Origin: Kutzneria buriramensis
Lineage (GTDB): Bacteria > Actinomycetota > Actinomycetes > Mycobacteriales > Pseudonocardiaceae
Direction of reading: 5' to 3'
NCBI RefSeq assembly: GCF_003387475.1
Contig: NZ_QUNO01000031.1
Coordinates: forward strand, 1 to 64,000
Length of the DNA: 64,000 nucleotides
A program made the translations under genes and the position numbers. Shown here piece by piece: positions 10,175-63,327 of the stretch (positions are counted from its first letter, which is position 1; each line of letters opens with the position of its first letter). The notes under the pieces are model-generated. The model had not been told where the DNA came from and made no database searches. It was given only the letters and a program-made list of their open reading frames with translations.

Positions 10175-10480
10175 ATGAGTCCTCTTGAGATCGTTGCCAC
10201 CAGAGATGTTCCCGCGCAGGGAGGCGTTCTCGCCCCGCTCCAGCCGGCGGGCCGGGCCGCCCCGGTGAGTTGCTTCGCCGCCGCCACCGACGCCCTTCTC
10301 ACCGTCCAGCTCGCGCGGCAGGCGACCGCCCGGGCGGCGGCTGCGTACTGGGTCGGCCAGGTCGACCGCGCGCTGGCTCAGGCTGTCGGTGGGTACGTCG
10401 CCTCGGGCAGCGCCGGTTCCGGTCTGAGCGGGAGCGGCGCCGACATGTCGATCGCTGAGTTGGTTCACGCGATCGGCTGA
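10175..10480 (+). CDS. Small PVxC-motif protein, copy 1
   Basis: A 101-residue protein of the repeated family described under findings. It has LEIV near the start, a Pro/Ala linker, the central APVSCFAAATDALL motif, a long Ala/Gln-rich helix (LARQATARAAAAYWVGQV), a Gly/Ser-rich spacer and the C-terminal MSIAELVHAIG. There is no signal peptide by the usual pattern. The ribosome binding site is weak. The family is unknown to me. Membership rests on the shared Cys motif and shared C-terminal S-I/V-x-x-L pattern. Confidence 0.6.
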   Translation: MSPLEIVATRDVPAQGGVLAPLQPAGRAAPVSCFAAATDALLTVQLARQATARAAAAYWVGQVDRALAQAVGGYVASGSAGSGLSGSGADMSIAELVHAIG

Positions 10481-11782
10481 TCGGAAAGGCAGACGGGCGT
10501 CGCATGTGCCGTTCGATGGTCCCGCGAGATCGGTGGCAAGGACAGCCTGGCTCGCGGTGGCGAGGTCGACGACTTCAGCAGCGCACCGTGCTTGTCGGCC
10601 ATGTCGGGCTGGAGCTGAGCGTGGGAATGTGAGATGTAGGTCAGCATCGCCACGTTCGGATCGTGGTGATTTCGGCGAGCACGTGGCTCGGGTCCAACAA
10701 CTCGGCCGCGTAGTGGCGCACCCGGCGACACCCGCTGGCTTCTCATCCTGGACACGGCCATCGCCGCGATACTCGCTGTGATCGACTCCGGGCAGCGCAT
10801 GCGTAGCACGGCGATCATGTGCCTGGCCACGTTGACCTCTGCCCGAGCAGTGATCATCAGATACGCTGACGACTGGGCCATGTCCTTCACACCGACGTCG
10901 ATCAGATCGTCGGGCGACGGGTTGGCCTCGCTCAGCAGGGCCCGCTCGCGTGGCGGTCGAAGACCGCAGACCAGCTGCCGTCCGTCCTGTGACGTGCTGC
11001 GAGCTGCCGCAGCTCGACAGGCAGGAACGGCACCACACGTGCTGCCGTACGAACAACGGCGCCACGGCGCCAGTGGGCGCGCTGTTCGACGGCGCGCCGT
11101 ACTGCCAGCTCGCCGGGCTCGACGGCTTTGAGCTGTCGGATGATCTCCCTGGCGAAGGCCAACAAGGAACGGAACAACCCGCCGATGTGGGCGCTGCCTC
11201 AGCCGTGGACGCTGCCTCAGCCGGAGCTCGACACCGGCAGAGTGACCATGCGCCGGCTCAGCAGGCTTGTGCATCCCTGGATCACCTGCGCAGCAAGCAC
11301 CACGGTCCGGGCGAGGGCCTGAGCGGGAGCGTCCGGTGGTTGAGCTCGCCACTGGTGTCGACGAGTCAGCGCCCGAGTTCACGGCGGTGGTTTGTGGTCG
11401 CGAGGGTCCTGACCGTGCGTGCCTCCAGATCCTGGCAGCTCCCCGCGACGTCGCAGTTCTGGCTGAATTCGACGATCGACTCGGCCTGGTGGACGTCGAC
11501 GCGCTGGAGACGGTTGACCGCCGCCTGGTCGTCGGCGCCGACGGTGGGGAGAAGCTGCTGGGGAATCGGTTGGACAGCAGCCAGGTCCCTTCCCGGTCGA
11601 CAGCGGCACAGCGAAACCGCGAGCTGGCTGCGTGGCACTGATCTCTGTGGAAAATCGTGCAGATCGGTTGGCCACGGGCGACAGATTCAGAACATCTCGG
11701 AAATCCCGCGGGTGCCGTGGTCACCCCGAGACGGTCGGACATAAAGTGAAGTGGGTCGTGGCAAGTCAGAACGGGAGGTTAT
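10481..11782. other. Decayed region with possible minus-strand gene remnants
   Basis: No intact gene is convincing. On the minus strand, protein-like stretches occur in more than one frame: MFRSLLAFAREIIRQLK near 11.18 kb and SPDDLIDVGVKDMAQSSAYL near 10.9 kb. They may be parts of one broken gene of unknown family. The rest looks non-coding. Confidence 0.35.
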
Positions 11783-11920
11783 ATGAGTCGTTCTCATGTT
11801 GTCTTCGCGGCGCTGGTCAGTGGCGCGCTCGTTGCCTTGGTGGCGGTCCTTTCCGCCATGTCCGAGCCTGCCTCACCGCAGGTCGACGCGGCCGACCTCG
11901 ACGCCGAGCCGACCGTGTGA
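11783..11920 (+). CDS. 45-residue single-pass membrane peptide
   Basis: ATG at 11783 follows a good ribosome binding site (GGGAGG, 11773-11778). The product is 45 residues: MSRSH, then a hydrophobic helix VVFAALVSGALVALVAVLSA that can span the membrane, then an acidic tail (DAADLDAEPTV). It resembles the many small membrane peptides of actinomycetes with no known role. It has no obvious operon partner. Confidence 0.5.
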   Translation: MSRSHVVFAALVSGALVALVAVLSAMSEPASPQVDAADLDAEPTV

Positions 11921-12257
11921 CGGGCCCGGCCATCGACCATGACCAGCAGGCCTCGGCCGGCCTGAACCCGCAGGCCTCGGCCGTCATCGTCGCGGATGGA
12001 GAGCGGCTGACCGGAGAACGAAACTGTCACCGCCCCTGACCGTCACGTTCTCCGGAATGGCCGGCTGCTCCGCCGTCGACAACCGGACGCCGCGCGGATC
12101 GCCCGAACGCGCGGTGTCCGGCTATATCAGCGGTCTCGGCCTTCGGCCGGCCGAGTCAGTCGCGGTGAATGCTCATACGGTTCCGCTGTTCTCGGATTTG
12201 CTCCGAACTTGGTCGGACGCTGGCTGTCGGCCATTGCCCACGATCCGGCCGAAAGTA

Positions 12258-12850
12258 CTCGGAGCAGCTCGCTTCGCAGTGCGCAAGCCCACCATGAACA
12301 TGCTCGTACAAGGCATTCCGGCTGCGGCAGCCGACACTCGCGCTTGTCGTCGTGCATGCCGGGACCGCGATCGCCTGCCCGGCGGTCGGCGCCGCCCGTC
12401 GCGAGACCACGTCCACGCACGGCCAGAAGTTCGTGCCGAACTTGATCGCCGCCCCAGCCACCCTGCCGGCTACTGATGGCACTGGCTCAGCCGATGGCCT
12501 GGGATACCACGAGAACCAGGCATATTCCTTGCCTTCTGCGTCGTCAAGGACAGTGTGACAGCCGGTGATCCGTCGACGTACACTACGCTGCCGACGCTCC
12601 GTCTGGCCGGCCGCGAGGTCAAGGGCGGTTCGTCGCGCAGAATCACCAACTCCGCGACGGCGCCCCGGGGACCACGATCCCGACCGAGCCGGGTGGCTCG
12701 TTCTACACCACGCTCAAACTCAAGCCGCAGCTTCCCGATGGCACCACGTGTGATGTGGACGTCCAGTGCGCGATCGTCACGTGCGCCGACTTCACCGCCA
12801 CCGCCGACCGGTTCTACGGCGAGTACATCCCGGTGCACTTCCGCGGGTAG
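12258..12850 (+). pseudogene. Frameshifted neocarzinostatin-like paralogue
   Basis: A decayed copy of the gene at 3024-3632. Matching blocks appear in different frames: RFAVRKP (intact WFAVRNP), AGTAIACPAVGAARRETTST (intact AGTAAACPVVGVAHRVTTSP), AGDPSTYTTLPT and RRITNSAT, then TTCDVDVQCAIVT-like sequence in a third frame and a stop at the same relative place. At least three frameshifts and small deletions prevent a full protein. It shows that the family was once duplicated here. Confidence 0.75.
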
Positions 12851-12879
12851 GAAAGAGCGGCTCGAAGCCTCGTCCAAGC

Positions 12880-13288
12880 TCGCGTCGGGTGGACTGCTCG
12901 TACTGTCCCAGGACATCACGAGCAGCGCGGCAACCCCGCGGTCCACCTACGGCCGGGTGCTCAGCGCGTTGAGCCAAGGCGAGAACGTGTCCGTCTCGGT
13001 GTCGTTCGCGCAGTACACGTCGGTGGCGATAGGCGCCCGGGCCCGGCGGTCAGCGGCGGTCTGTGCGTCAACGGATACCTGGTCTCCGAACACATCGCGT
13101 TCTCCGACGTGCGCTGCCCGCTGGAATCGAACAACCATCCGGTGACCGAATACATCCGCTACGCGGTGACGACGGACGACGTCATCACGGTCAGCACCAC
13201 GGCGCTCGCCGCCGACGGCACAGTGCTCACGAACAACGAGTACCGCTGGCTCAACGGAAAGGGCGCCTCGTTCGCCATTCGCCAGTGA
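12880..13288 (+). pseudogene. Remnant of a secreted beta-rich protein
   Basis: Two frames carry protein-like sequence: LSQGENVSVSVSFAQYTSVA, then GLCVNGYLVSEHIAFSDVRC in a second frame from about 13058, continuing to a stop at 13288 (WLNGKGASFAIRQ). The alternating polar/hydrophobic pattern and Cys residues suggest an exported beta-sandwich. No start or signal peptide is left. The family is not recognised. Confidence 0.4.
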
Positions 13289-13304
13289 TCCTCAGTGGTC
13301 GAAC

Positions 13305-13736
13305 TGGTCGTCGAGCCCCGCCACGGCCAGTTCGCCCCGGGACCCGTAACCGGTGCGGGCGAAGGCCTGGGCGATCCTGCCCTATGCGGTCTTCCGGCTG
13401 ATTCGCAGCACCCTCGCCAGTTGGTCGTTGCTGAGACCCTCGCTGAGCAGAACGGCGAGCAGGCGTTCGTTTTCCTCGACGATCGGCCGGCGGCGGCCCG
13501 GTGTCGTGATGCCGCACGCCTGCATCGAGCCGCGCAGCCAGTGTCGGCGGAGCACGATGTTCAGCCACGCCAGGGATGTCGTACGCCTCACAGAGCAGGG
13601 CGGGATCGGCGACGCCGAACCGGATCAGACAGTTGGTCGTGCTCGCCAATTCCATTGGCTGGGCGCGCTTCGGTGCCAGGCGCAGCGCCGCACCGGCCAC
13701 GCCATGGTCACGGTCGCGGGCCGCCACCAGTGACAT
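13305..13736 (-). pseudogene. Broken LuxR-type regulator (minus strand)
   Basis: The minus strand encodes ENERLLAVLLSEGLSNDQLA and RVLRISRKTA, a LuxR/GerE helix-turn-helix, followed after a one-base frame break by a tail AQAFARTGYGSRGELAVAGL to a stop. Upstream, FGVADPALLCEAYDIPGVAE looks like the end of a large regulator's helical domain. The N-terminal ATPase is gone. It is a dead LAL- or LuxR-type regulator. Confidence 0.55.
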
Positions 13737-13799
13737 CCGGAGCAGTTCGGCGGCGGCGCAACCGGCCTTGGCGACCGCGGCGAAGCGGCCGGGACGACC

Positions 13800-14793
13800 T
13801 GCTGCACGCTAACGCCCAATTCGACCTGGTCAACGTCTTCCGCAGCATCTACGGGGACAGTTACGGCCACCGCACGACGGGCTGCTCGCCGCGTACCACC
13901 AACTGTTGCGTGATGACATCAGAGGCGGTTGGGACGCGGCGGTGACCGCAGCGATCGATCTGGACCTGACCAGGCCGAAGACGCCGATGCGCGGGCTGGC
14001 TCGGCTTGTGGTTGCCGAGAGGTGCTCCAATCGCGGCGAGCTCCAGCAGTCGAGCTGCTGGCTGACCGACGACACGACCAGCACCCTCTTGGCCGCCCGC
14101 GGCTGAGTGGAATGTGGTCTGCTCGCAGGGAAAGGCGACAAAGGCGAGGGCATGGTTGTCGGTCTGCGCGCCTACGAAGAGACCCCCGCGGCTGGGCGAC
14201 GACGTCGGGATGAACCTGCTGATGCTGCGGCTGTGGGCCGGCGCGCCGGCAGTGACCAGCCCGAACTCGTGCGGCAGCTGCTCGATAAGGCTGTGGAGCG
14301 GCATTTCCGGCAGCCCGGTCGCGCGTCGCGGTTGACGCGTGATGCTCGTGCGGGCGATGGTGGAGAAGGACGCCGAGGACGTGATGGCCGTGGTCCACGA
14401 GGCGCGGCGGGCGCCGGAGAACCAGTTGGCGCAGTTGCCTGCCGACGCGGTCGCGGCGGTGCTGGCTGAGGATCCGGGAGTCCTGTTCGAGCAATCGATC
14501 GAAATCCTCGCCAGGATGGGACTGATGCCCATGCACAGATTGTCAAACAGATGGTGCGGCGGCACGGTCGTTCCCCAGCCCGAGGGAAGGCACGATTTCC
14601 GACACCGAGTGTCGGATCGTCGAGCTGGCCGCCCAGGGGGCGGATCAACCGTCAGATCGCCGCCGGCGTCCGGGCGAGCGAGAAGACCGTTGGGAACAGC
14701 CTGACCCGGGTTTTCGCCAAGGCGGGCTGCCATGCGCGAGTGGACCTGGCGACCGTCCACCTGGCCGACCATCTCGACGCGATGGACTGCTGA
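13800..14793 (+). pseudogene. Broken LuxR-type regulator (plus strand)
   Basis: The plus strand carries helical repeat-like sequence in one frame (LLAAYHQLLRDDIRGGWDAA), another block in a second frame (VEKDAEDVMAVVHEARRAPE), and finally a LuxR helix-turn-helix in a third: QIAAGVRASEKTVGNSLTRV through HLADHLDAMDC to a stop at 14793. Several frame changes show it is inactive. It abuts, in opposite orientation, the LuxR remnant on the left, so two dead regulators lie back to back. Confidence 0.6.
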
Positions 14794-14934
14794 GGGCATA
14801 CGCGGATGGCGGAAGAAATCCAAGCCACGGATCGAATAATTCTGATTGTGGAGGCTGTTGATGGTCGGCCGCTTGGCCCGGTGGTTTGCTATAGGGCGTA
14901 CGGGCCTATTCCATTGGTAGTCGGAGGTTCTTTC

Positions 14935-15204
14935 ATGGGTAGTGCGGCCACGATCGAGACCCGGGTGTCCGAGGCGCTCGACAAGGTTGTGTCACGCAAC
15001 GTCGGTACCCCGTCAGCGGCGGATTCCCCGCAGTTCATTGGCCATATCGCCCACGTGGTTGAGCAAGCGTTCGCGGCTTACGGCGCGGCCAACTACGGTC
15101 CGGGTGTCATCACCAGCAAGGCCGTTGTTGCGGCGGCTGGCGACGGGGTTACGGCGCGGTCATCGGTCCTGGACCTGCTGTCGGTGCGTGAGCGTTCCGT
15201 CTGA
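14935..15204 (+). CDS. Small protein, possible divergent family copy 2 (no Cys)
   Basis: An 89-residue protein from ATG 14935, six bases after GGAGG. It begins MGSAATIETRVSEALDKVV and ends SSVLDLLSVRERSV, so it keeps the I-E start and the S-V-x-x-L end of the family, but it has no cysteine and no P-V-x-C motif. The middle is predicted helical (HIAHVVEQAFAAYGAANYG). It is followed by a very strong terminator shared with the convergent family copy 3. Assignment to the family is tentative. Confidence 0.55.
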   Translation: MGSAATIETRVSEALDKVVSRNVGTPSAADSPQFIGHIAHVVEQAFAAYGAANYGPGVITSKAVVAAAGDGVTARSSVLDLLSVRERSV

Positions 15205-15207
15205 TCA

Positions 15208-15252
15208 AATAAATGGGGTGAGGTTGCCGGCGGCGACCTCACCCCATTTATT
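15208..15252. terminator. Strong bidirectional terminator
   Basis: A perfect 17-bp inverted repeat, AATAAATGGGGTGAGGT (15208-15224) and ACCTCACCCCATTTATT (15236-15252), with an 11-base loop. The A/T-rich ends give a T-run on both strands. It lies exactly between convergent small-protein genes and should stop transcription from both sides. Confidence 0.9.
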
Positions 15253-15265
15253 GTCTTTGGCGAAT

Positions 15266-15553
15266 TCAGCTGACTCCGGCGTGGCGCATCAGGGTCAACT
15301 CCTCCACCGTGGCCTGCTCGTTGCCGAGCTGGGCCGGGATGTCCTCTGTCCCGTCGAAGGTGCCGTGGTTGTGGGCTCGTGCCGCGAAGTAGGCGAAGCC
15401 AGCCGCGCCGAGTGCGAGGCCGACCAGGTCGGCGGTCTTTACGGTGGTCAGGGCCGCGCAGGTGACTGGCTGCGCGGCGGACACGAATCCGGGGGGAGAC
15501 ACCTCGCAGCTGCTGCCGAAGAATGACGCCATCGTGTATTCGACTCTGTTCAC
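15266..15553 (-). CDS. Small PVxC-motif protein, copy 3
   Basis: A 95-residue protein starting at GTG 15553, eight bases after GGAGGG. It starts MNRVEYTMASFF, has the central AAQPVTCAALTTVKTADLV motif, a hydrophobic Gly/Ala-rich segment (GLALGAAGFAYFAARAHNHG), and ends ATVEELTLMRHAGVS. The first five codons (GTG AAC AGA GTC GAA) are identical to those of copy 4 next door. The hydrophobic segment could insert in or lie on a membrane. Family unknown. Confidence 0.7.
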   Translation of the reverse strand: MNRVEYTMASFFGSSCEVSPPGFVSAAQPVTCAALTTVKTADLVGLALGAAGFAYFAARAHNHGTFDGTEDIPAQLGNEQATVEELTLMRHAGVS

Positions 15554-15685
15554 TGCACGGCCCTCCGGCGAGATGGTAATTGCTCCACGGTTCAATCGGG
15601 TTGCTTATGGTAAGCGTTGGTTTCTTGGAGAAACTACTCGGACACGGGTGGGATGTCATCCACCATAGTGCTGAGCGGTGTCCAT

Positions 15686-15952
15686 TCAGTCCAGAACCGC
15701 GAGCCTGAGGCCGGCCAATTCGGAGACCGAGTGGTCGGCCACGTCGCTCGAGTACATGGTGTGGGAGTCCTCGAGAATATGGCCGCCGTGGTAGTGCGCC
15801 TTGCAGAAGTTGAACGCGGTGGCGGCGGCGGCGAGGGCGACGAACGTGAAGTCCACGGCCGCCGGGCAACACGTGATGGTTGGTGTTGATTCACCCTGCC
15901 ACAGTGACTGTGGTGCCACGTGCGACGTGAACGCGCTTTCGACTCTGTTCAC
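15686..15952 (-). CDS. Small PVxC-motif protein, copy 4
   Basis: An 88-residue protein starting at GTG 15952 after GGGAGGG. It starts MNRVESAFTSHV, has TPTITCCPAAVDFTFVALAA in the centre (double Cys), then FNFCKAHYHGGHI, and ends HSVSELAGLRLAVLD. The His/Cys-rich KAHYHGGH patch parallels ARAHNHGT in copy 3 and THYHIGHY in the copy at 33.7-34.0 kb. It is tandem to copy 3 on the same strand with its own ribosome binding site. Confidence 0.7.
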   Translation of the reverse strand: MNRVESAFTSHVAPQSLWQGESTPTITCCPAAVDFTFVALAAAATAFNFCKAHYHGGHILEDSHTMYSSDVADHSVSELAGLRLAVLD

Positions 15953-16450
15953 GGACCTGCCCTCCCGGGGACGCCCAATCCTGCTGTCTCGCGGCTGCGA
16001 TGGACGGATTTGTTACCCGGGTCACCCGTGTTCCAGCAACGCGCTGGCCGCTCCTTCCGGCAAAGTCGAACGGGCGGTCACGCGGTCGCGGATGGTCGCA
16101 CCAGAGGGTCGTCACAATGGTGGAGACCGGTTGGTCATGGTTGAATCGGATGTCGAATCTTCGCCGTGACGGGATCGCCGAGCTGTGGCCGCTCGTCGTC
16201 GCCTCCGGCGGCCGGCGCGGTACCGGTCATCCTCCCTGGATGTCTGCGGCGGTCTCGTCCGCCGGGTGTCGGCACGCTTGCAGGTAGCATGCCTGGACTT
16301 CTTGCCGAACGCGGTGTCCGGATTTCTCTGACTATCTCGACCCTCTGGTCGATTCTTGTTTGAATTTGAAAAACTAGATCGATACAGCGCGGCCGGGTAT
16401 GGGTAGCGTCGGTTTCTCTGGTTCGGGATCGCTGTGGAAGAGGAAACGCC

Positions 16451-16746
16451 ATGAACAGTGTTGAAAGCGTTCTGAACAGCGTGCGGAGTGTCCTCGGCTC
16501 GATCGAGCCGCTCGGCTTCGCGACGGAAGTTGTTCCGGTGAGCTGCCTGTTCGCCGGCATCGTCCGAGCCATCGCCGGCCAGGCCCAGCTCGCCCGGGCG
16601 GCGAAGTTCGCCGCCCAGCGCAACAACTCTATCGCGCGCTCGCGGCCTCGGGCTACCTGCCCGGCTCGACCGTGCCGGGCGGCGTGGCCGAGCCACCCGT
16701 GGATCGGTCCAGCGAGCAGCTGATCGCCCTGATGAGCGTTCGCTGA
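16451..16746 (+). pseudogene. Small PVxC-motif protein, copy 5 (frameshifted)
   Basis: The ATG at 16451 opens MNSVESVLNSVRSVLGSIE, then EVVPVSCLFAGIVRAIAG and a helix LARAAKFAAQRNN. The frame then leaves the family pattern. Shifting by one base at about 16625 restores LYRALAASGYLPGSTV and the family end SSEQLIALMSVR with a stop at 16744-16746. One base therefore appears missing: either a true frameshift, a sequencing error, or (less likely) programmed slippage. A terminator follows directly. Confidence 0.6.
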
Positions 16747-16750
16747 GCGC

Positions 16751-16793
16751 GATTGCCCGCGGCGGCGCCGTGTCGTGTCACCGCGGGCGATTT
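16751..16793. terminator. Terminator between small protein and reductase
   Basis: Inverted repeat ATTGCCCGCGG (16752-16762) and CCGCGGGCGAT (16781-16791), with one G-U pair and a T-run (TTT) at the right end. It sits five bases after the stop of copy 5 and before the convergent aldo/keto reductase gene. Confidence 0.75.
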
Positions 16794-16817
16794 GGCCTTG
16801 CGCCGGCCAACCTTGTG

Positions 16818-17798: not shown

Positions 17799-18250
17799 CA
17801 GTTCACCTTTCGGTCGTCGGGACTTCCGGCGAGGTGGATCCGGGCTTGGCCGGCCAGGGGTGAACAGTTATTCTCGCTGATCCTTTCAGATTGATGGCGG
17901 TGTCGGTATCCGAGTAAATCGGAAGGAACCTTGAGATCGGCGTCGGTCGTGAGGGTGTGTTCGCCGTGCTCGGGCCGCCGATCCGCGGTGTACGAGTCAT
18001 CTGTCCGAGGTGTCCGAGTCATCTGAACGCCGATGGTCGGGGCTTTCCAAACCGTGGATGAGTGGAATGACGGAAACCTTCCGCGTTTTTCGCGTCACCC
18101 ATCTGAGGAACTTTTGAGCTCATCTTTAGCCTGGTCGGGTGATGATGTGAGTCACTCGCCGTAAATGGACTCGGACGTTGACTGCGAGCTGGTCTGCGGG
18201 GACCACAGGTTGGTCCGGCAGTGGGATCAGGCGATACGAGGTGAAGTCAG
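17799..18250. promoter_or_regulatory. Divergent intergenic region with 17-bp direct repeats
   Basis: This region separates the reductase (minus) from the PucR-type regulator (plus). At 17987-18003 and 18009-18025 are two direct repeats, GGTGTACGAGTCATCTG and GGTGTCCGAGTCATCTG, which differ at one base and start 22 bp apart, about two helical turns. This spacing suits a regulator binding the same face of DNA twice. No gene is seen here. Confidence 0.5.
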
Positions 18251-19345: not shown

Positions 19346-19370
19346 CCGGCGACCGACCTGAGGAGAGTCC

Positions 19371-20399: not shown

Positions 20400-20403
20400 C
20401 CCG

Positions 20404-21357: not shown

Positions 21358-21414
21358 GTGAACAACGTCGTCGGCCTCGCCCTGCTACGTGCTGGGCCGA
21401 CGGCGCTTTGTGGC

Positions 21415-21690: not shown

Positions 21691-21734
21691 GCAGAGTAGG
21701 AGCAGGGCCTGTGCGTCCGTCTGCGGCGCCCAGG

Positions 21735-21960: not shown

Positions 21961-22004
21961 ACGGTCAACGCGTCGAAGCGGTGCCGTCACCACAACCATC
22001 CGAA

Positions 22005-27563: not shown

Positions 27564-28235
27564 ATGTCCGAGGCTGTCAGCGCGACCGTCCTGCGGCTGC
27601 GGGACGACCGCGTCCGAGCGGTGGACACCGACGACTCGGGACTGAGCCGGCCGCTGTTCGACCGGTCCGGCGCCGGCGTCGCTGTGCTGAACCGAGAACT
27701 GCTCGTCACCAATGCCAGCGCCGCCCTCGGCGCTCTGTTCGATACCCGGCCTTCGACTTTGGTTGGCATCCGCTTTCCCGATCTGTTCCTCGCGCCGGTC
27801 CATGACACCATGCGTCGGCAGCTCGCCGAGCTTGCGGTCGGCCGGCGCCTCCGGTTCGCCGAACGACTGGTCGGAATGCGGCCGGGGGAACGGGTCTTCT
27901 TCGCGGACGTCACGGGCCGCTTCCTGGATCCGTCATCGCTGATCATGGTCGTCGATCCGGGTGACACGCCGTGGCGGGTGTGGGACGACGGGCCGTCGGT
28001 CCTACTGAGCAAGGTGGACGCGCGGATCCTGGAGGGTCTGGCGGCAGGGGAGTCGGCCGTCCGGATGGCGTTGCGCCTGCACCTGAGCCGCCAGTCGGTC
28101 GACTACCACGTGGGCGCGATGCTGCGGCGGCTGAGCGTGCCGAGTCGAACCGCGTTGGTGGCAAAGGCGTGCGCCGCCGGCCTTCTCGACTCGACCACCT
28201 GGCCGCTGCGCGTGCCGGCCAAGCACATCCACTGA
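27564..28235 (+). CDS. PAS-LuxR regulator, first of tandem pair
   Basis: A 223-residue regulator from ATG 27564, preceded by GGGGAGG. Residues 30-140 look like a PAS sensor (GAGVAVLNRELLVTNASAAL, FPDLFLAPVHDTM). The C-terminus has a LuxR/GerE helix-turn-helix (LEGLAAGESAVRMALRLHLS then RQSVDYHVGAMLRRL). PAS-LuxR proteins such as PimM activate antibiotic clusters in Streptomyces. The second paralogue starts ten bases downstream. A copy of its last part is found at about 60.93-61.07 kb. Likely controls the nearby biosynthetic or small-protein genes (inferred). Confidence 0.85.
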   Translation: MSEAVSATVLRLRDDRVRAVDTDDSGLSRPLFDRSGAGVAVLNRELLVTNASAALGALFDTRPSTLVGIRFPDLFLAPVHDTMRRQLAELAVGRRLRFAERLVGMRPGERVFFADVTGRFLDPSSLIMVVDPGDTPWRVWDDGPSVLLSKVDARILEGLAAGESAVRMALRLHLSRQSVDYHVGAMLRRLSVPSRTALVAKACAAGLLDSTTWPLRVPAKHIH

Positions 28236-28244
28236 GGACTGACC

Positions 28245-28826
28245 ATGAACGAGACCAACGACCGTTGGTTTGTGGCGAGCCTGGACACCGAACTCCGGAT
28301 CTCTTTCGCGGACAGGGAGTTCAGCGCCATCTTCGGCGTTCCCCCTGAGCAGTTGCGACAGCGGTGTGTGCTGGAGTTGCTGCATCCCAGCGTGTCGCGG
28401 GAGCAGGGGCGGACGCTGAGCCTGCTGGCTCAGGCTGGTCAGGGTGAGATCAGCACAACAACCATGCTGTCGCTGCCTGACGGACAGGCAACGCCCGCCA
28501 TGATGACTGCCCTCGCCATCCCCCAGAACCGGATCGTGGTGACACTCTGCGTTGTCCCGTATGAGACTCCCGAGCGCAGGGGCCGCCAGCGGGACCTCTC
28601 GCTGCTGGACGCCCAGCTGCTGGAAGCTGTCGCCGCGGGCGTGCCCACGACCAGACTGGCTACCCGGTTGAACCTGAGTCGACAGGGGCTGGAATACCAC
28701 CTCGGCCGGATGGCCAGGAAGTTCGGCGTGACCAACCGGACCGGGCTGGTCGCCAAGGCCTATTCGTCCGGGCTGTTCAGGCCCGACTGTTGGCCCCCGC
28801 GGGTCGCGCCGGAGTTCATGGCCTAG
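28245..28826 (+). CDS. PAS-LuxR regulator, second of tandem pair
   Basis: A 193-residue paralogue of the preceding gene. N-terminal PAS-like part: ASLDTELRISFADREFSAIF and LRQRCVLELLHPSV. C-terminal LuxR-type helix-turn-helix: LLEAVAAGVPTTRLATRLNL and SRQGLEYHLGRMARKF. The ATG at 28245 lies after a GAGGACTGACC spacer just past the upstream stop, so the two are one transcription unit. A decayed, insertion-split copy is at about 61.08-62.08 kb. Confidence 0.85.
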   Translation: MNETNDRWFVASLDTELRISFADREFSAIFGVPPEQLRQRCVLELLHPSVSREQGRTLSLLAQAGQGEISTTTMLSLPDGQATPAMMTALAIPQNRIVVTLCVVPYETPERRGRQRDLSLLDAQLLEAVAAGVPTTRLATRLNLSRQGLEYHLGRMARKFGVTNRTGLVAKAYSSGLFRPDCWPPRVAPEFMA

Positions 28827-29049
28827 CATTCCAGCCGGGACGCAACGTGGATGGTGCGAGGACTCAGTCGAACCCGAACCAGTTCAGGCCTTTGCAGAGC
28901 GTTGCTAGAACTCGCCGGGTCCGGACCTCGAACCGCGGGTAGAGCCGTCGTCCTCGCACCGAGCAATGCTCGATATCTGTAGATCGGCCGGTGAAGTGCG
29001 CACTTTTCCGGTGATCGAGTAACTGGTCTCAAGCAGGCCAACGTTGGCG

Positions 29050-30597: not shown

Positions 30598-30882
30598 ATG
30601 ATGGGTGCTGTTGAAGCTGTCGCCGTCGAGGCGGTGCCCGCCTCCGGCGGTGCACTGGGCCCGCTGGAGTTCGCGGTCGCCGAGAACCTGGTGAGCTGTG
30701 CTGTGCTGGAGACGTGGGCGCTCGCAAAGGCTGCCCAGCAGGCTGGCCAGTGGGGCCTGGCCAAGATATATCTGGCGAGGATCGCCGCAGCAGGTGCCTT
30801 CCATCAGTCGGCAGATGCCGCCGCGGCCTTTTCCACGGGGAATCTGTCGGTCGACGAACTGGCCGCGCTCCGTCTGGCCTAA
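30598..30882 (+). CDS. Small PVxC-motif protein, copy 6
   Basis: A 94-residue protein with tandem ATGs at 30598 and 30601 behind GATGAGG. MMGAVEAVAVEAVPASGG, then AENLVSCAVLETWALAKAAQ, a helix around QWGLAKIYLARIAAA, and the end LSVDELAALRLA, which nearly matches VSELAGLRLAVLD of copy 4. The Cys motif here is L-V-S-C rather than P-V-S-C. Isolated between IS110 debris and a decayed gene. Family unknown. Confidence 0.7.
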   Translation: MMGAVEAVAVEAVPASGGALGPLEFAVAENLVSCAVLETWALAKAAQQAGQWGLAKIYLARIAAAGAFHQSADAAAAFSTGNLSVDELAALRLA

Positions 30883-32602: not shown

Positions 32603-32869
32603 TTATTGGTGCGTGGTTCGCAGCGTGATCAGTCGATGCACCGATGGTCCGAGTCGGACCTCGGCCGCGTCTGCGGAACTCAAGTATCGTTCCGTGTGGA
32701 AACCGTGTCCCTCGACTGCGGCCTGCTTTGTCAGAACGCGTACAAATCGCGCGAACGCCGTGGTGGCGACGACGGCCTCCCCGGCGGCGCAAGTGATCGG
32801 ATGCATCGCCGTCATGTCTTCGAGTGGAGTCAAGGATGCCGTCGTGGCGGCCTGCTCGATTCGGCGCAC
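32603..32869 (-). CDS. Small PVxC-motif protein, copy 7
   Basis: An 88-residue protein from GTG 32869, preceded by GAAAGGGA. MRRIEQAATTASL, central MTAMHPITCAAGEAVVATTA, a helix FARFVRVLTKQAA, and the end GPSVHRLITLRTTHQ. The I-E start, the P-I-T-C motif and the S-V-x-x-L end place it in the family. An upstream ATG at 32929 would add 20 unrelated residues and lacks a better ribosome binding site. Confidence 0.6.
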   Translation of the reverse strand: MRRIEQAATTASLTPLEDMTAMHPITCAAGEAVVATTAFARFVRVLTKQAAVEGHGFHTERYLSSADAAEVRLGPSVHRLITLRTTHQ

Positions 32870-33655: not shown

Positions 33656-33970
33656 TCAGTCGTGCAGGCTTGCCGCCAGCGTCGTCAGTGCGGCGCTGGA
33701 CAGGTCCGTACCTGGGACGCCGCCAGCCGGCAGGGTCACCGGGGCCGACGTGTAGTGGCCGATGTGGTAGTGGGTGGCAAGAGCACCACCGATGAAGCCG
33801 GCGATACCGGCGGTGACGATGGCGGCCGCGCCGAATCCCTTGCCCGCCACCACGGCCGCCTCGGCGGCCGTGGCGGCCGCGGCGCAGGCGACCGGCGAGT
33901 TTGAGACGCTGAACGCCAGCGGCGAGTTGTCGACCCGCTGTAGATTGACGAACGACTCGATATCAATCAT
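33656..33970 (-). CDS. Small PVxC-motif protein, copy 8
   Basis: A 104-residue protein from ATG 33970, preceded by GCGAGGGCAACGTG. MIDIESFVNLQRVDNSP, central SNSPVACAAAATAAEAAVVA, a Gly/Ala-rich hydrophobic stretch (FGAAAIVTAGIAGFIGGALA) that could span a membrane, then THYHIGHYTSAPV and the end SSAALTTLAASLHD. The His patch after the hydrophobic helix is shared with copies 3 and 4, so these three may form a subgroup. Confidence 0.7.
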   Translation of the reverse strand: MIDIESFVNLQRVDNSPLAFSVSNSPVACAAAATAAEAAVVAGKGFGAAAIVTAGIAGFIGGALATHYHIGHYTSAPVTLPAGGVPGTDLSSAALTTLAASLHD

Positions 33971-34679: not shown

Positions 34680-34964
34680 ATGGAGATCAACTCTGTCGAA
34701 AAGGCTGCTCGTCGATGGGGTGCAGGATCGGTTGAATCGATGGAGATGTCGACCGAGATGCTTCCGTTGCTGTGCGCCACCGTCATATGCACGGAAGCCC
34801 TCGCGGAACGGTTTGCTTACGCGCTAGAGCGGACGCGCGCAGCTCGCGCGGTGCGGGGGGGCGCGGCGTCTCTTCAGTCGACGCGATCGGATCTGATTGC
34901 CGCGCGGGGCGAGCTCTCCGCTATGTCGGTGGATGACTTGAACACCATGATCTCGAACATCTAA
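34680..34964 (+). CDS. Small PVxC-motif protein, copy 9
   Basis: A 94-residue protein from ATG 34680 with a good AGGGGA ribosome binding site. MEINSVEKAARRWGAG, then MLPLLCATVICTEALAERFA (the Cys motif is T-V-I-C here, with a second Cys before it), a charged helix YALERTRAARAV, and the end MSVDDLNTMISNI. It is more charged than the other copies. A strong terminator follows 27 bases after the stop. Confidence 0.65.
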   Translation: MEINSVEKAARRWGAGSVESMEMSTEMLPLLCATVICTEALAERFAYALERTRAARAVRGGAASLQSTRSDLIAARGELSAMSVDDLNTMISNI

Positions 34965-53097: not shown

Positions 53098-53131
53098 GGT
53101 GGCTCCTCAGGGTCGGGGCGGGCAGGGGTGG

Positions 53132-53344
53132 TCAGCGGGCGGCCATGCGGGCGACGAGGCTGGCCGGTCGCAGATCGGTCCAGTGCTGCTGCACGTAGTC
53201 CAGGGCCTCTGTGCGGGTGCTCGCCTCCTTGACCACGTCCCAGCCGGCCGGCACCTCGGCGAACGACGGCCACAGGCTGTGCTGGTTCTCGTGGTTGCGC
53301 AGCACCAGGAAGGTGCCGTTCTCGTCGTCGAACGGATTGGTCAT
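53132..53344 (-). CDS. mbtH: MbtH-like protein
   Basis: A 70-residue MbtH-family protein. It has the conserved [36 protein letters not shown] and a C-terminal WTDLRPASL. These proteins bind A domains and are needed for activity of many NRPSs. ATG 53344 overlaps the NRPS-A stop (ATGA), giving balanced production with that enzyme. Confidence 0.95.
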
Positions 53345-59300: not shown

Positions 59301-59634
59301 AGGGCCACCGCCTGTCGCGCAGCCATTCGCTGGCCGCCTCCTCCGGGACGGGCGTGCCGCTCAGGTCGACCAGCGGTGTTGGGGCGTTCGACGGCGGGAA
59401 CGGAACCTGCACGGTGCCGTCTTGGCCGCTCTCGAAGGTGACGTGCAGGCAGTCAGCCTCGGCGACCGCCTGCGCCGTCGCGGCGAGCAGGTGGTCCTCG
59501 TGCACTGGGCCGAGCAATTCCAGGTAGCCGATGCTGCGTAGCGCGGGGTTGCCCGGCTCCAGCTGTTCGGCCAGCCACATCGCGGCCTGCGCGCTGGACA
59601 ACGGGAGGTGCATTGTGCGCAGGTCGCCTTCCAT
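53341..59634 (-). CDS. NRPS-A: starter C-A-PCP-C-A-PCP
   Basis: A 2097-residue synthetase, first gene of the operon, from ATG 59634 with GGAG upstream. Order with rough residues: a divergent starter C domain ([12 protein letters not shown] 131), A ([11 protein letters not shown] 598, [11 protein letters not shown]), PCP ([13 protein letters not shown] 981), C ([10 protein letters not shown] 1168), A ([11 protein letters not shown] 1640, [10 protein letters not shown]), PCP ([13 protein letters not shown] 2016). There is no TE, so the dipeptide passes to NRPS-B. A C domain at the very N-terminus, with a type II PKS in the same operon, implies N-acylation of residue 1. A1 pocket residues by hand alignment are D-I-W-E-A-G-A-D-D, acid-rich, suggesting a diamino acid such as Dap. 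A2 is hydrophobic (D-A-F-V-L-A-C-V-C). Confidence 0.95.
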
Positions 59635-59976
59635 GGCACGCTCCAGACGTCGGACTCTCCACGGCGGTTCGGCAGGAAAACATCGAATAGGTGCTGCCTG
59701 GCGACAGTTCTACCGGTGAGAATTGGACTATGCCATCCGCGAGTGCCGAGAGGAACTCCGGTACATCGCGGACGTGATTCACTGCGGCAGTCCGAAATCT
59801 GCCGGCGAAGGCCGTGCGGGTGCCGACAATCCGGGTCTTCGAGCTTGATCGGGGTCTGATGACTACGCGGTGGCAGTCTGGCCGTCAGACACCTGTTTGG
59901 GCGCTAGGAGAAGCCGTGGCTCTGTTGGTCATTGCTATTGTCTACGCAGGATGATCGCGCCAGAGGAACCGCGAGC
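59635..59976. promoter_or_regulatory. Likely promoter region of the biosynthetic operon
   Basis: This gene-free stretch lies directly upstream of NRPS-A, the first gene of the minus-strand operon, so the operon promoter should be here. I cannot place -35/-10 elements or an operator with confidence. No coding sequence is supported. Confidence 0.4.
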
Positions 59977-60225
59977 ATGGTCAACGACACGACCCGGCTG
60001 CCGGGCCTGGACGGCTTGGTCGTCACCATGGTCGACGACAACAACGACAACGGCCTATCAGTCGTACACATGGAAACCGCTGATGAGCGGGCACGGGTCT
60101 GCCGGCGCTGTGGGGTGGTCGCGACGCGGGTCAAGGAATGGGTTACCGCCCGTCCTTGGGATCTGCCGGTCGGCGGCAGGTTCTGCCAGCTGTGTTGGCG
60201 CAAACGCCGCTGGGTCTGCGAATGA
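59977..60225 (+). mobile_element. ISL3-family transposase N-terminal remnant
   Basis: MVNDTTRLPGLDGLVVTMVD then ETADERARVCRRCGVVATRV and RPWDLPVGGRFCQLCWRKRR, ending at a stop. This is the N-terminal zinc-ribbon region of ISL3-type transposases (CxxC pairs before the helix-turn-helix). The DDE domain is absent here; a separate scrap of an ISL3 catalytic domain is at about 61.27-61.43 kb. Confidence 0.65.
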
Positions 60226-60470
60226 GGTCGGGTGTGAAGGTCAGGGTCTGGTGCGACAGCGACAGCGCGGCGCGGTTGAACAGCATACGAAGCGTTCGGT
60301 GGTATGGACTGCTCTTGGTCGCCAGCCCTGCTACTGGAGGCTTCGTCCGTTGTCGCGTCGACACGGCGATGATCCTCCGTTTCTGAGCTACATCCGCTGC
60401 CTCTCAAGGCGTCCAGGCCAAGGCGAAAATGGTTCATTACCGAGCAAATTTCGATTGAAAGGTGAATATT

Positions 60471-60773
60471 GTGAATCATGTTGAAGCCGCGGTGGCGCAC
60501 GCCGGCGTGTCGTTGGACTCGGTGCTCGGTCCGTTCGAGGTAAGCTCGCCCGTCGCGTGCACCCCTGCGGCTGCCTGGCGCGCGGTGACCGCGCTGGTCA
60601 CGGCGGCGCGCGTCGTCGGGGAGCGCGAGTATGCCCGCGCCATCGCCCAGGGCCACCCCGACCTCAGCGTGCAGGGGTTCCACGCCAATGCGGCCGAGAT
60701 GGCGCACCGGACAGCGCCAGCGGGCAGCCTCTCGCTCGAGGCGTTGCTGGATGCCGTGGTCCAGTACGGCTGA
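60471..60773 (+). CDS. Small PVxC-motif protein, copy 10
   Basis: A 100-residue protein from GTG 60471 with GAAAGGTG upstream. MNHVEAAVAHAGVSLDSVLG, then EVSSPVACTPAAAWRAVTAL, a helix AARVVGEREYARAIAQG, and the end LSLEALLDAVVQYG. A decayed near-copy is at about 63.06-63.33 kb, and both are followed by sequence from the 3' end of an M16 peptidase gene on the opposite strand. Confidence 0.72.
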   Translation: MNHVEAAVAHAGVSLDSVLGPFEVSSPVACTPAAAWRAVTALVTAARVVGEREYARAIAQGHPDLSVQGFHANAAEMAHRTAPAGSLSLEALLDAVVQYG

Positions 60774-60807
60774 TCGTCGTTGACCAGCCGAGGTCGGTCC
60801 GAGTCCT

Positions 60808-60925
60808 GCCGGCTGCCTCGGTGACCTGGTCGGGTGTCACTGCGGCCAGTCGGTCGTCCTGTCCGCGCAGCCAGTCCAGCGTCAGGCCGTTCTGGTCGAG
60901 TTCGAGCAGCACTGCCGCCATGCCG
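60808..60925 (-). pseudogene. Duplicated 3' fragment of the M16 peptidase gene
   Basis: About 115 bases nearly identical by eye to 63.49-63.60 kb, encoding on the minus strand AVLLELDQNGLTLDWLRGQD followed by DRLAAVTPDQVTEAAG, the end of the M16 domain. Preceding sequence (60785-60803) also matches the terminator region beside the intact gene. The peptidase stop region is deleted. It stops abruptly where PAS-LuxR sequence begins. Confidence 0.75.
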
Positions 60926-61070
60926 CCAGTCGGTGGACTACCACGTGGCGCGATGCTGCGGCGGCTGAGTGTGTCGAGCCGAACGGCATTGATGGCCAGG
61001 GCGTGCGCCATCGGCCTGCTCGACCCGACCGCCTGGCCGCTGCGCGTGCCGGCCAAGCACATGTGCTGAG
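60926..61070 (+). pseudogene. 3' end of a duplicated PAS-LuxR regulator (first of pair)
   Basis: The sequence encodes, in broken frame, SVDYHVA-MLRRLSVSSRTAL and ACAIGLLDPTAWPLRVPAKH, matching the last 45 residues of the regulator ending at 28235 (ACAAGLLDSTTWPLRVPAKH). Only the helix-turn-helix end is left. It is followed ten bases later by the start of the second regulator's copy, the same spacing as in the intact pair. Confidence 0.75.
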
Positions 61071-61264
61071 GACTTACGATGAACGAATCCGGGCACCGCT
61101 GGTGTGCGGCGAGTCTTGACGCCGAACTCCGAATCACCTTTGCGCACGAGAAGTTCAGCGCCGCCTTCGGCGCTTCGTCGGAACAGTTACGGCGGAGGTG
61201 CGTGTTGGAGCTTCCGCACCCCACTGTACTGCGAGGGCCTGGCCAGATGCTGAACCTGCAAGGG

Positions 61265-61435
61265 AAACGTGTACGGCACCGTACTGCTCGACATCGACAC
61301 CGGCAAGGCAATCGATCTTCTGGACGGCCGAGAAGCCGAACCGCCTGCTCAATGGTTGCAAGACGACTCCGGAGCCGCGGCGATCTGCCGCGACCGCGCC
61401 GGCGCCTACTCCGAAGGCGCGAAAACTGCTCTGGG
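61265..61435 (+). mobile_element. ISL3-family transposase catalytic-domain scrap
   Basis: One frame reads YGTVLLDIDTGKAIDLLDGR, AEPPAQWLQDDSGAAAICRD and RAGAYSEGAK, the first DDE block of ISL3 transposases (V-L-V-D-x-x-T-G; C-R-D-R-A-G-A-Y-A-E-G). It lies inside the interrupted PAS-LuxR copy and is itself truncated on both sides. Confidence 0.7.
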
Positions 61436-61479
61436 CCCGCGAACAGGGCGTCGCCTATTGTGGGTTCCTGCGAACGCGC

Positions 61480-61690
61480 ACCCGCCGGTTCCGCAACGCT
61501 GCGGTGAGCGAGGCACGATTGAGCACGTCGGCGGGAAAGCGCGATCCTGGATCCCGTCGCGTGACAGGCTGGCCGTCAATTCCGCCAGGCGCTCGCCGCT
61601 GAGGGCGATCAGCGCGACGGGGTGACCGGCAGCCCCAAAACGCCGTGCGGCGGCGAGCCCGAGGCCGGGGCCCGGGCCGTTGACGCGGGC
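61480..61690 (-). pseudogene. Short-chain dehydrogenase N-terminal fragment
   Basis: Minus-strand GPGLGLAAARRFGAAGHPVA and LIALSGERLAELTASLSRDG, then in a shifted frame AFPADVLNRASLTAAL. This is a Rossmann nucleotide-binding start of an SDR. It ends after about 65 residues. It belongs to neither ketoreductase in the window and is part of the foreign insert splitting the PAS-LuxR copy. Confidence 0.6.
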
Positions 61691-62432
61691 CGGTCTCGGC
61701 GAGATCGGCACGACGACCATGCTGTCGTTGCCCGATGAACAGGCCATGCCGGCCATGATGACGCTCTCGCCTTATCATCAAACGGAATTGTTTGCGCTCT
61801 GCGTTGTCATGCATGAGACCCTCGACCGCCCCGGCCGGCATCGAGTCCTCTCGATTCCGGACGCCCTGGTGCTGGAAGGCGTCGCCGCGGGCGTGGCGAC
61901 GAGCAGATTGGTCACCCGACTGAACCTGGGCCGGCAGGGATTCGAGTACCACATCGGCCGTATCGCTCGGAAATTTGTGGTGACCAATCGGCCAGGCTGG
62001 TCGCCAAGGCCTACTCGGTCGGTCTGTTGGCCCCGTCTGTTGTCCCACTCCTCGGGGCGCGTCGGAGCGCATGGCCTAGCGTCGCAAGTCGCTGGGGCGT
62101 GGCTTCCAGGATCCTGGTCGGCAGTGATCGGCTGTCCTCATCACTCCACCTCACCGTGGCGCTCGCCCGACGGCCTGGCCGAGCCACTCGCGATCCAGGC
62201 TCCTGAACCGACCAATCGCCCACTACCGACGAACGCAGGCGCTGGTCACCAAGCGGTGGTGAGCGGTGCGAGTTGTCCATCCTCCGATTGGAGGATATCT
62301 CGCGGATTTTTCTCAAGCTGCTTCGGAATTCTCTCTATTGGGCGTCAGCACCGCCCGTGTGGACGGATTTGATGTTTATGATCGAGGCGTCCACTATCTG
62401 TGGATGGATCGCCGATTACCAGGGAGTTTGTT

Positions 62433-62699
62433 GTGAACATCGTTGAGCGCGCCGTCGCGGCGTCGGACGTGCTGTCGCCGCTGACTGTGGCGAACCCGGG
62501 CGAGCCGACGGCCTGCCTCGTTGAGGGCCTCGAGGGGATTGCGCGTTACGCCGGCGAGGTGGTGAATGAGACGGCCCAGTTCGCCCGCGCCCGCGCCCGC
62601 GGCCAGTTCGGTGCGCCGACGCGGAGCGGAAGCGCGTCCGGCGACGGTTCCGTGCTGTCGGTCGTCCAGCTGACCGAGGCCCTGGTCGCGGCTGTCTGA
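62433..62699 (+). CDS. Small PVxC-motif protein, copy 11
   Basis: An 88-residue protein from GTG 62433, seven bases after AGGGAG. MNIVERAVAASDVLSPLT, then NPGEPTACLVEGLEGIARYA, a helix EVVNETAQFARARARG, a Gly/Ser-rich spacer and the end LSVVQLTEALVAAV. The Cys motif is P-T-A-C. Next to the partial copies 12 and 13, so this end of the window has a small cluster of the family. Confidence 0.7.
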   Translation: MNIVERAVAASDVLSPLTVANPGEPTACLVEGLEGIARYAGEVVNETAQFARARARGQFGAPTRSGSASGDGSVLSVVQLTEALVAAV

Positions 62700-62826
62700 C
62701 CGACTCGATGAAGTGACCACCCGTGGCGGTGGGCGGCTAAAAGACCACTCCGTTGTTCGTGGTGCGGTGAAGGCGGTCAACCGCCGTGGGTCGGTCGCGT
62801 CCCGAGAGTTCCCTTGAATCATTTGT

Positions 62827-62990
62827 GGCCATCTGTATGTCGTCCGACGGCGATGGAATCGAACCGTTGGACCCGTTCGTGCCCACGGGGCCGGTGTCCT
62901 GCGTCGTCGCTTGGGAAATTCGCGCGGTTCAAACTGTCAACTTCGCCAAGGAGATCGAGATCCGGCGGGCCACCGGTCGGGCCGGCTCCG
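62827..62990 (+). pseudogene. Small PVxC-motif protein, copy 12 (partial)
   Basis: From GTG 62827 the frame reads MAICMSSDGDGIEPLDPFVP, TGPVSCVVAWEIRAVQTVNF and AKEIEIRRATGRAGS, with the family Cys motif and following helix. After about residue 55 it no longer resembles the family and no S-V-x-x-L end is found. It is probably a truncated copy fused to the next one. The frame stays open to 63214. Confidence 0.5.
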
Positions 62991-63059
62991 ACGTTGAGAC
63001 CGGTTACTGCCCAATCCGGGTCGCGACATTCTGTCCGGCGGTGGCGGTTCGATGCGCTA

Positions 63060-63327
63060 TGGAGATCTGTGGGTTCGGTGATCGCCCCGCTCGAACTGGG
63101 TTCGCTCTTCGCGTGTACCCGGGCGGCCGTCTGGAGGGCGGTGATCAGGCTGGCGACCGCCGAGCGCGTTGGGTAACGCGAGTACGCCTGCGCCAGCGCG
63201 CAAGAGCACCCTGACCTGCCGGGGACAGGGCTTTCATGTCGGTGTGGCCGAGTTCGCGCACAGGGCGGCGCCGACGGGCAGGCTGTCGTGCGAGGCGCTG
63301 CTGGATGCCGTGAGCAAGCACATCTGA
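63060..63327 (+). pseudogene. Small PVxC-motif protein, copy 13 (decayed twin of copy 10)
   Basis: Blocks in three frames match copy 10 in order: LELGSLFACTRAAVWRAVIR (copy 10 FEVSSPVACTPAAAWRAVTA), an in-frame stop, REYACASAQEHPDL (REYARAIAQGHPDL), QGFHVGVAEFAHRAAPTGRL (QGFHANAAEMAHRTAPAGSL) and SCEALLDAVSKHI to the stop. A stop codon and frameshifts inactivate it. It lies at the end of the M16 peptidase gene, as copy 10 does beside the duplicated fragment. Confidence 0.7.

Follow-up and report, generated by a model that had tools for sequence, protein, structure and literature searches.

What are the small cysteine-motif genes that recur along a contig of the actinomycete Kutzneria buriramensis, and what do they serve? 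The stretch analysed here (the window) is the first 64,000 nt of contig NZ_QUNO01000031.1, hereafter C31. The original prediction, made from the sequence alone, described some thirteen dispersed copies of an unrecognized family and took them for peptide precursors or for variable partner-specific proteins. Gene context and homology support the first of these guesses, and nothing in the analysis supports the second. The copies are likely to be precursor peptide genes for one linaridin-type machine, of the kind that makes ribosomally synthesized and post-translationally modified peptides (RiPPs), which would act on them in trans.

Twelve of the thirteen predicted copies were borne out, three of them damaged or partial. 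The nine intact copies (10.2, 15.3, 15.7, 30.6, 32.6, 33.7, 34.7, 60.5 and 62.4 kb) align from end to end, and the family is real. A profile of Amycolatopsis copies from two genomes, which had themselves first been found with a profile that included the Kutzneria copies, matches all nine (E 4e-11 to 9e-7). A second profile was made of sister precursors, meaning in-cluster precursors of other genera chosen by their position beside HTTM genes, at loci on which the own-family profile had already been run. It matches the copies at 10.2 kb (E 8e-6) and 34.7 kb (E 1e-4), is weak for those at 15.7, 30.6 and 32.6 kb (E 0.008 to 0.1) and gives no match to those at 15.3, 33.7, 60.5 and 62.4 kb. The copies in the window are:

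10175..10480, + strand: intact precursor-like gene, 101 residues, PVSC; E 4e-11 (Amycolatopsis profile) and 8e-6 (sister-precursor profile)
15266..15553, - strand: intact precursor-like gene, 95 residues, GTG start, PVTC; E 5e-7
15686..15952, - strand: intact precursor-like gene, 88 residues, GTG start, variant TITC; E 1e-9
16451..16624, + strand: 5' part of the frameshifted 16.5 kb copy, PVSC; E 5.5e-7 for that match, E 1e-9 (Amycolatopsis profile)
30598..30882, + strand: intact precursor-like gene, 94 residues, variant LVSC; E 5e-7
32603..32869, - strand: intact precursor-like gene, 88 residues, GTG start, PITC; E 1e-10
33656..33970, - strand: intact precursor-like gene, 104 residues, PVAC, with an upstream TCGGTGGATG element; E 1e-8
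34680..34964, + strand: intact precursor-like gene, 94 residues, PLLC; E 5e-8 and 1e-4
60462..60773, + strand: intact precursor-like gene, 103 residues (100 from the GTG at 60471), PVACTP; E 1.5e-8
62400..62699, + strand: intact precursor-like gene, 99 residues (88 from the GTG at 62433), PTAC; E 9e-7
62837..63214, + strand: partial or degraded copy (62.8 kb), PVSC, without the family C-terminus; weak, E 0.003
63145..63327, + strand: decayed 3' end of a copy (63.1 kb), weak protein match, E 0.003; a DNA duplicate

The thirteenth, a divergent copy placed at 14.9 kb, is not supported by any of three profiles: the open reading frame at 14806-15204, which carries a PVVC stretch and overlaps a called gene (14935-15201), gives no match at E <= 1. 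The 16.45 kb copy, also matched by the nine-copy profile (E 4.8e-5), is frameshifted relative to intact relatives in two Amycolatopsis species. The 63.1 kb remnant belongs to a stretch (63075-63359) that duplicates 60519-60804, the 60.5 kb copy, with 73% DNA identity over 290 bp, and the adjoining stretch, inside an M16 peptidase gene (M16a), is duplicated as well (93% over 131 bp). Two more segmental duplications were seen, 28087-28425 with 60922-61259 (79%, 339 bp) and 28433-28827 with 61688-62080 (76%, 398 bp); through these, the interval between the family members at 60.5 and 62.4 kb holds parts of the genes at 27.6-28.8 kb.

The family extends over several contigs of the same 12-Mb genome, in which genes were called with a home-made caller. 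The nine-copy profile finds new copies on contigs C26, C41 and C46, the best five with E 4.3e-7, 1.8e-6, 2.2e-6, 3.4e-6 and 1.9e-5. Twenty-five intact members are counted, ten on C31 (nine in the window and one at 66318-66590), thirteen on C26 and one each on C41 and C46. This count excludes the fragments at 16.5, 62.8 and 63.1 kb, C26:26.7, C41:21.8 and C46:13.5 kb, and includes a member at C26:31.3 kb that came to light in the gene list, has weak profile support (E 0.0014) and is absent from two of the alignments (24 own rows). Tetranucleotide use, a soft test, speaks against contamination of the four contigs: they score 0.84 to 0.95 against six other stretches of their own genome, compared with 0.78 to 0.88 against two Amycolatopsis stretches.

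Members are 84-105 residues long and all 25 contain at least one Cys; the predicted Cys motif recurs in 20 of them as P-[VITLAPM]-x-C. Conservation peaks at the first M, at the motif Cys, at one Gly and at the S and L of the C-terminus. Most of the nine aligned rows show M-x-x-[VI]-E, P-L, P-[VIT]-x-C, G and S-V-x-x-L, in keeping with the V/I-E near the N-terminus and the S-V-x-x-L end read from the sequence originally. That the ends are more conserved than the middle holds for the front (mean information 2.06 bits in the first 12 columns and 2.66 in the Cys motif, against 1.59 in the middle) and scarcely for the last 22 columns, which reach only 1.66 bits, mainly from S and L. Each gene had also been credited with its own ribosome binding site; these sites and the start codons vary, several starts being GTG. 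The label 'unrecognized' stands insofar as a Pfam and NCBIfam scan of ten window sequences (nine intact, one partial) gave nothing near a cut-off, and falls insofar as relatives exist, namely precursors served by linaridin-type enzymes. An early search with the nine-copy profile in 59 other genomes gave two weak matches alone (one in G029, and one in G020 with E 0.0036), the former later found beside HTTM genes. A wider profile gave none at E<=1e-4 in 393 other genomes of the class, a weak negative, as only 13 candidates per genome were scored.

The neighbourhood of the tenth C31 member points to a function. This gene, at C31:66318, lies 2.3 kb past the end of the window and is flanked by an M16B-like peptidase pair on one side and, on the other, by an operon of the order HTTM-ABC-alpha/beta hydrolase-DUF5819-LuxR-DCC1; M16 peptidases and transporters, both of which adjoin it, were among the neighbours that the original prediction had advised looking for. 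The putative maturation cluster spans C31:63.4-71.9 kb and comprises:

63418..64000 in the window, continuing to C31:64689, - strand: M16a peptidase gene, 3' part in the window, without HxxEH
C31:64689-65993: M16b peptidase gene, HLFEH present
C31:66676: HTTM-domain protein (LinG-like), HTTM match E 0.0075, below cut-off
C31:67522: ABC exporter (LinT-like)
C31:69294: alpha/beta hydrolase (LinE-like)
C31:70334: DUF5819 protein (LinL-like), above the Pfam cut-off
C31:70888: LuxR-type regulator
C31:71553: DCC1-like thiol oxidoreductase

The genome has one HTTM gene (E<=1e-20), so that a single modifying set stands against 25 intact copies on four contigs, the gene pattern of one enzyme and many precursors. 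No LanKC-type kinase-cyclase was seen near the precursors, since none of the 30 own-genome PF00069 matches falls on C31, C26, C41 or C46. Neither the HTTM nor the DUF5819 protein has a sequence relative in the PDB. The HTTM protein of the Amycolatopsis strain sp. MtRt-6 (79% identical to that of Kutzneria), as modelled with AlphaFold2 (42 sequences; mean predicted local distance difference test score, pLDDT, 91), resembles GGCX over nearly its whole length (E 6e-4, TM 0.61 by query length), and the DUF5819 model from the same strain (mean pLDDT 87) has no fold match at E<=0.001.

The same operon is found in other actinobacteria. A search of 396 other genomes of the order at E<=1e-10 gives HTTM homologs in 21, and the other six genomes of the genus have no HTTM gene at E<=1e-30. 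The six nearest HTTM neighbourhoods (L078-L083) contain the operon, whole or in part, together with two or three small genes of like build. A named-record scan covered 52 loci around HTTM genes, in hosts including Amycolatopsis, Prauserella, Actinopolyspora, Saccharomonospora, Micromonospora, Streptomyces and Leifsonia. A DUF5819 homolog is present in 50 of these loci and a small gene matching a combined profile (E<1e-5) in 16, 12 of which were not used for that profile (one of the 12, L104, is nearly identical to a used locus). Across 120 genomes of the family, precursor matches (E<=1e-4) were found in five of the ten with an HTTM gene (E<=1e-20) and in none of the 110 without; 43 candidates per genome were scored, and the identity of the 120 genomes in the two scans is taken from their shared handles. 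Four of the five positive genomes had not been used to build the profile. In four of the five the matches lie at most 3 kb from an HTTM gene, the fifth being the genome of the window itself. In the sister clusters L078 and L079 a tryptophan-halogenase-like flavoprotein gene (PF04820) adjoins the operon; none was seen among the own-cluster proteins scanned. In the distant clusters L085, L088, L089 and L092 the HTTM gene encodes 613-629 residues and also matches the alpha/beta hydrolase of a linaridin locus, so that the two functions look to be fused there.

Linaridin clusters are described as containing a LinL protein, an HTTM protein, an alpha/beta hydrolase, an ABC transporter and precursors with a PxxxTP motif (PMC9927463). 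Because the PxxxTP hexapeptide is seen in small genes of the more distant clusters, as PVLATPA or PVMATPA, and because that paper lists similar parts, 246 genomes were searched with the NCBIfam linaridin_RiPP model. One locus passes (E 1e-30), and blastp comparison of it with the C31 cluster gives E 2e-143 for the ABC protein, 3e-50 for HTTM, 1e-23 for DUF5819 and 3e-14 for the hydrolase. A LinL homolog is the customary marker of a linaridin cluster; the DUF5819 protein is called LinL by elimination among the genes described in PMC9927463 and not against a named LinL, its homology (E 1e-23) being to a like-placed protein. Judged by these sequence matches the machine is of linaridin type. Its precursors connect to those of linaridin-type loci in two steps of profile alignment (hhalign), from the own family to the sister-cluster precursors (E 9e-14) and from these to the linaridin-type precursors (E 7e-7), with scores of 70 and 37 against maxima of 17.6 and 12.1 among 100 column-shuffled controls apiece. 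P-V-x-C coincides with PxxxTP, its Cys taking position 4, as in PVACTP at 60.5 kb, PVVCTP in A. vastitatis and PVLCCP in Prauserella, and PxxxTP itself is present in several sister-cluster precursors, many of which carry the C-terminal tail as S-x-x-E-L-L-x-x-R. The earlier idea that the Cys region might be the product is not sustained, as the Cys sits on the hexapeptide that marks the end of the leader in linaridins.

The precursors of the own genome do not pass as linaridins on the formal tests and are not classed as such here. The models NF033402 and NF033752 gave no match for the nine intact window copies, one partial copy or the member at C31:66318 (single scans covered these and not the other 15 own members), and a whole-genome search with NF033402 gave no own-genome match. 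Of six precursors from other genomes, two matched the linaridin models weakly (E 0.013 and 0.03), far below the cut-off.

It is unlikely that the genes instead encode SDP-like toxin precursors, with HTTM and DUF5819 acting as SdpB and SdpA, and cleavage and disulfides yielding membrane-acting peptides with no linaridin chemistry. Both sdpA and sdpB are required for active SDP toxin (PMC5719810). The sole NCBIfam match of the HTTM protein is a weak co-linear one to TIGR04033 export_SdpB (E 0.048), the operon includes a DCC1-like thiol-disulfide oxidoreductase, and every one of the 25 members has a Cys. The SdpB match, however, reaches 13.3 bits where the cut-off is 178, the matches of the proteins scanned include neither an SdpA or SdpC model nor an SdpC-like precursor, and the machinery matches the linaridin locus much better than it does SDP. 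Several sister precursors, moreover, lack Cys though their operons also carry DCC1.

A single profile at E<=0.01 gives 27 matches in the Kutzneria genome, 18 in Amycolatopsis sp. MtRt-6 (G770) and 16 in A. kentuckyensis (G771), besides three in Micromonospora endolithica and two each in A. vastitatis, A. antarctica, A. palatopharyngis and A. marina. A recent strain-specific expansion was considered and rejected, given the 18 and 16 matches in the two Amycolatopsis genomes. Both of these carry the cluster (HTTM identity 77-79%), with no family member found in their cluster loci, nor in the interval from M16 to HTTM. Of the 17 MtRt-6 copies retained in the analysis, 13 have a neighbouring gene whose homolog lies near an A. 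kentuckyensis copy (counted by eye). Fourteen reciprocal-best ortholog pairs, 66-95% identical, have a pooled ratio of non-synonymous to synonymous substitution rates (dN/dS) of 0.47 (range 0.13 to 0.99), with members at E>1e-5 and reciprocal pairs below 40% identity excluded; for several Amycolatopsis copies the start was picked manually or no clear one assigned. The pooled ratio indicates purifying selection on the scattered copies. Kutzneria copies share 28-50% identity with their closest relatives in Amycolatopsis. Short arrays occur as well as single genes, with five members at C26:30.0-32.7 kb in Kutzneria and four matches at G770:C12:537-540 kb in MtRt-6; two array members look to correspond to Amycolatopsis copies, with 40 and 47% identity.

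The same data bear on a second improbable account, on which there are two unrelated sets: the cluster would mature its adjoining member only, and the scattered copies would be duplication relics with another function or none. The frameshifted, decayed or shortened copies (16.5, 62.8 and 63.1 kb, C26:26.7 kb), the segmental duplication that took in a precursor and part of M16a and the fast evolution of the family genes fit such relics. They contrast with 25 intact frames in which the Cys, Gly, S and L are conserved, with the two Amycolatopsis species that have 16-18 matches elsewhere and no member found at the cluster, and with the pooled dN/dS of the 14 pairs. Finally, small folded cytoplasmic proteins (e.g. 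regulators or immunity proteins) lying near a peptide cluster by chance would better suit the length of 84-105 residues and the conserved C-terminal segment, both unusual for short RiPP precursors, and are very improbable in view of the precursor matches in HTTM genomes only (five of ten against none of 110), the sister genes adjoining HTTM in several genera and the two-step leader homology to linaridin-type precursors.

On the reading of the copies as precursors for a linaridin-type machine, the one cluster at C31:63.4-71.9 kb would serve its adjoining member and the 24 others on four contigs. The conserved N-terminal part (MNxVExxA...PL) would be a leader bound by the membrane enzymes, the P-V-x-C stretch on the PxxxTP site would mark the leader/core boundary, the variable Ala/Gly/Val-rich stretch would be the core and the S-V-x-x-L tail a follower or second recognition site. 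As the leader is common to all, many different cores could be processed in trans by one enzyme set. Going by their families, the M16 pair would trim and the ABC protein export the peptides. The putative cores are rich in Ala, Gly and Val (24, 11 and 10%), for which reason a hydrophobic or amphipathic core helix is likely; the products are probably membrane-active or signalling peptides.

An element near TCGGTGGATG recurs approximately 70-150 bp upstream of several members (e.g. those at 33.7 and 15.3 kb), and a one-mismatch form of it stands upstream of HTTM in L098. Exact GGTGGATG is present upstream of 3/25 Kutzneria, 4/17 MtRt-6 and 4/16 A. kentuckyensis members (11/58 in total), against 0/119 and 0/103 controls (0/222). 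With one mismatch the figures are 8/25, 7/17 and 7/16, against 9/119 and 7/103. The element was found by short-word counts in the Kutzneria and MtRt-6 upstreams and is in-sample there, and the A. kentuckyensis copies are largely orthologs of those in MtRt-6. A motif finder gave a likelihood of 125 on the real set, within the spread of 20 control sets (mean 118, maximum 138); shuffled upstreams score about half the real likelihood, mononucleotide shuffles being a soft control. The element is a lead only, a possible operator for the LuxR-type regulator of the cluster.

The window also contains a large secondary-metabolite cluster on the minus strand (36042-59634), in which, by eye, genes of 2677 and 2097 residues resemble non-ribosomal synthetases and stand with paired ketosynthase-like, dehydratase-like, ketoreductase-like, carrier-protein and MbtH-like small genes. 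Homologs of several of these genes sit near scattered copies in MtRt-6.

A number of observations weigh against precursors processed in trans by a linaridin-type machine. The action of the cluster on distant copies is deduced from the sequence they share and from the joint occurrence of cluster and copies. Direct alignment of the own family with linaridin-type precursors gives E 0.27 and a score of 9.7, below the best column shuffle (11.1), and the full PxxxT/CP hexapeptide is present in one of the 25 own copies, that at 60.5 kb. The putative cores, with bounds set by hand, contain 6.1% Thr and 3.6% Ser, unlike the Thr-rich, dehydrobutyrine-containing cores of linaridins, and the conserved C-terminal tail does not appear in the linaridin description consulted (PMC9927463). 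No methyltransferase was found by Pfam scan in ten proteins of and around the cluster; a local N-methyltransferase is reported for all characterized linaridins in PMC10373908, and corynaridin is described without one (PMC9927463). Among the ten HTTM genomes, five have no precursor match: the HTTM genes of four are distant ones; in G029, the fifth, gene context identifies precursors that escape the profile at E<=1e-4. The MtRt-6 contig ends just after the LuxR gene, so that a precursor beyond it could be missed. A dN/dS of about 0.5 would also be expected of genes under loose constraint, and the ratio for single pairs is as high as 0.99. The upstream element reproduces only in part: an 18-bp model built from the own copies exceeds the 95% control level in 12/17 MtRt-6 copies and the reverse model does so in 3/25, the figures for a 22-bp model being 8/17 and 5/25.

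The usual place to look for RiPP precursors is next to their enzymes. In this genome most lie far off, and those scanned have no Pfam or NCBIfam model; the family profile can be used to find more such genes. If the reading of trans-acting maturation is true, each such genome encodes a natural library of at least 16 modified peptides from one linaridin-type enzyme set. The exact mechanism of that set is called unclear in PMC9927463, and the comparison of many natural substrates with a common leader would offer a direct route to the roles of HTTM and DUF5819. More tentatively, and with slightly less than even confidence, we propose a new RiPP subclass: a linaridin-type maturase built around a GGCX-fold HTTM enzyme and an M16 pair, acting in trans on some 16-25 scattered precursors per genome in two genera, in which leader, Cys hexapeptide and follower would frame a diversifying core, giving a library of secreted modified peptides and a bacterial counterpart of GGCX. 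No report of scattered precursors for linaridin-type systems was found in the literature searched, a search that does not establish their absence from print.

Among known systems, daptides can be set aside. Their precursors have a C-terminal Thr and their clusters an aminotransferase and an alcohol dehydrogenase (PMC10036551), whereas none of the 25 own members ends in Thr and neither enzyme is among the ten proteins scanned. A methyltransferase in a distant cluster matches a daptide model below its cut-off (E 4.5e-17, 62 vs 175 bits). Linaridins (corynaridin, legonaridin, cypemycin and grisemycin types) share with the Kutzneria system a homologous LinG-type HTTM protein, LinE-type hydrolase, LinT-type exporter and a DUF5819 protein in the LinL position. 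They differ from it in their precursors, those of Kutzneria mostly combining a degenerate hexapeptide, with Cys as its fourth residue, with a long core poor in Ser and Thr and a conserved C-terminal tail, and in cluster content, the Kutzneria system having an M16 pair, scattered precursors and no methyltransferase among the proteins scanned; linaridin clusters are said in the corynaridin paper to contain no leader protease gene (PMC9927463). The M16B heterodimers of class III lanthipeptides (Bcn-gP1/gP2, PttP1/P2) are likewise two-gene pairs with HxxEH in one partner and not in the other (PMC8960859). Unlike theirs, the M16 pair of Kutzneria has no lanthipeptide synthetase beside it among the proteins scanned. 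The R/Y signature, searched as a crude pattern, is present in its M16a and not in the M16a of L098 and L100.

GGCX is one membrane enzyme with many propeptide-bearing substrates. The predicted fold of HTTM matches it and may thereby tie the system to propeptide-directed modification as it occurs in animals; the GGCX rows show 13-14% identity, and HTTM is less than half the length of GGCX. A parallel in gene arrangement is that of the prochlorosins, for which 29 precursors are reported for ProcM and 79 for SyncM, and where precursors can be scattered single genes (PMC10783134). The prochlorosin enzyme is a class II lanthipeptide synthetase (PMC10783134), as against a linaridin-type set in actinobacteria here. 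By analogy, with in-trans action read from the genes, the two systems would have in common one promiscuous enzyme and many scattered precursors, an arrangement known from prochlorosins and, as far as we found, new for linaridin-type systems.

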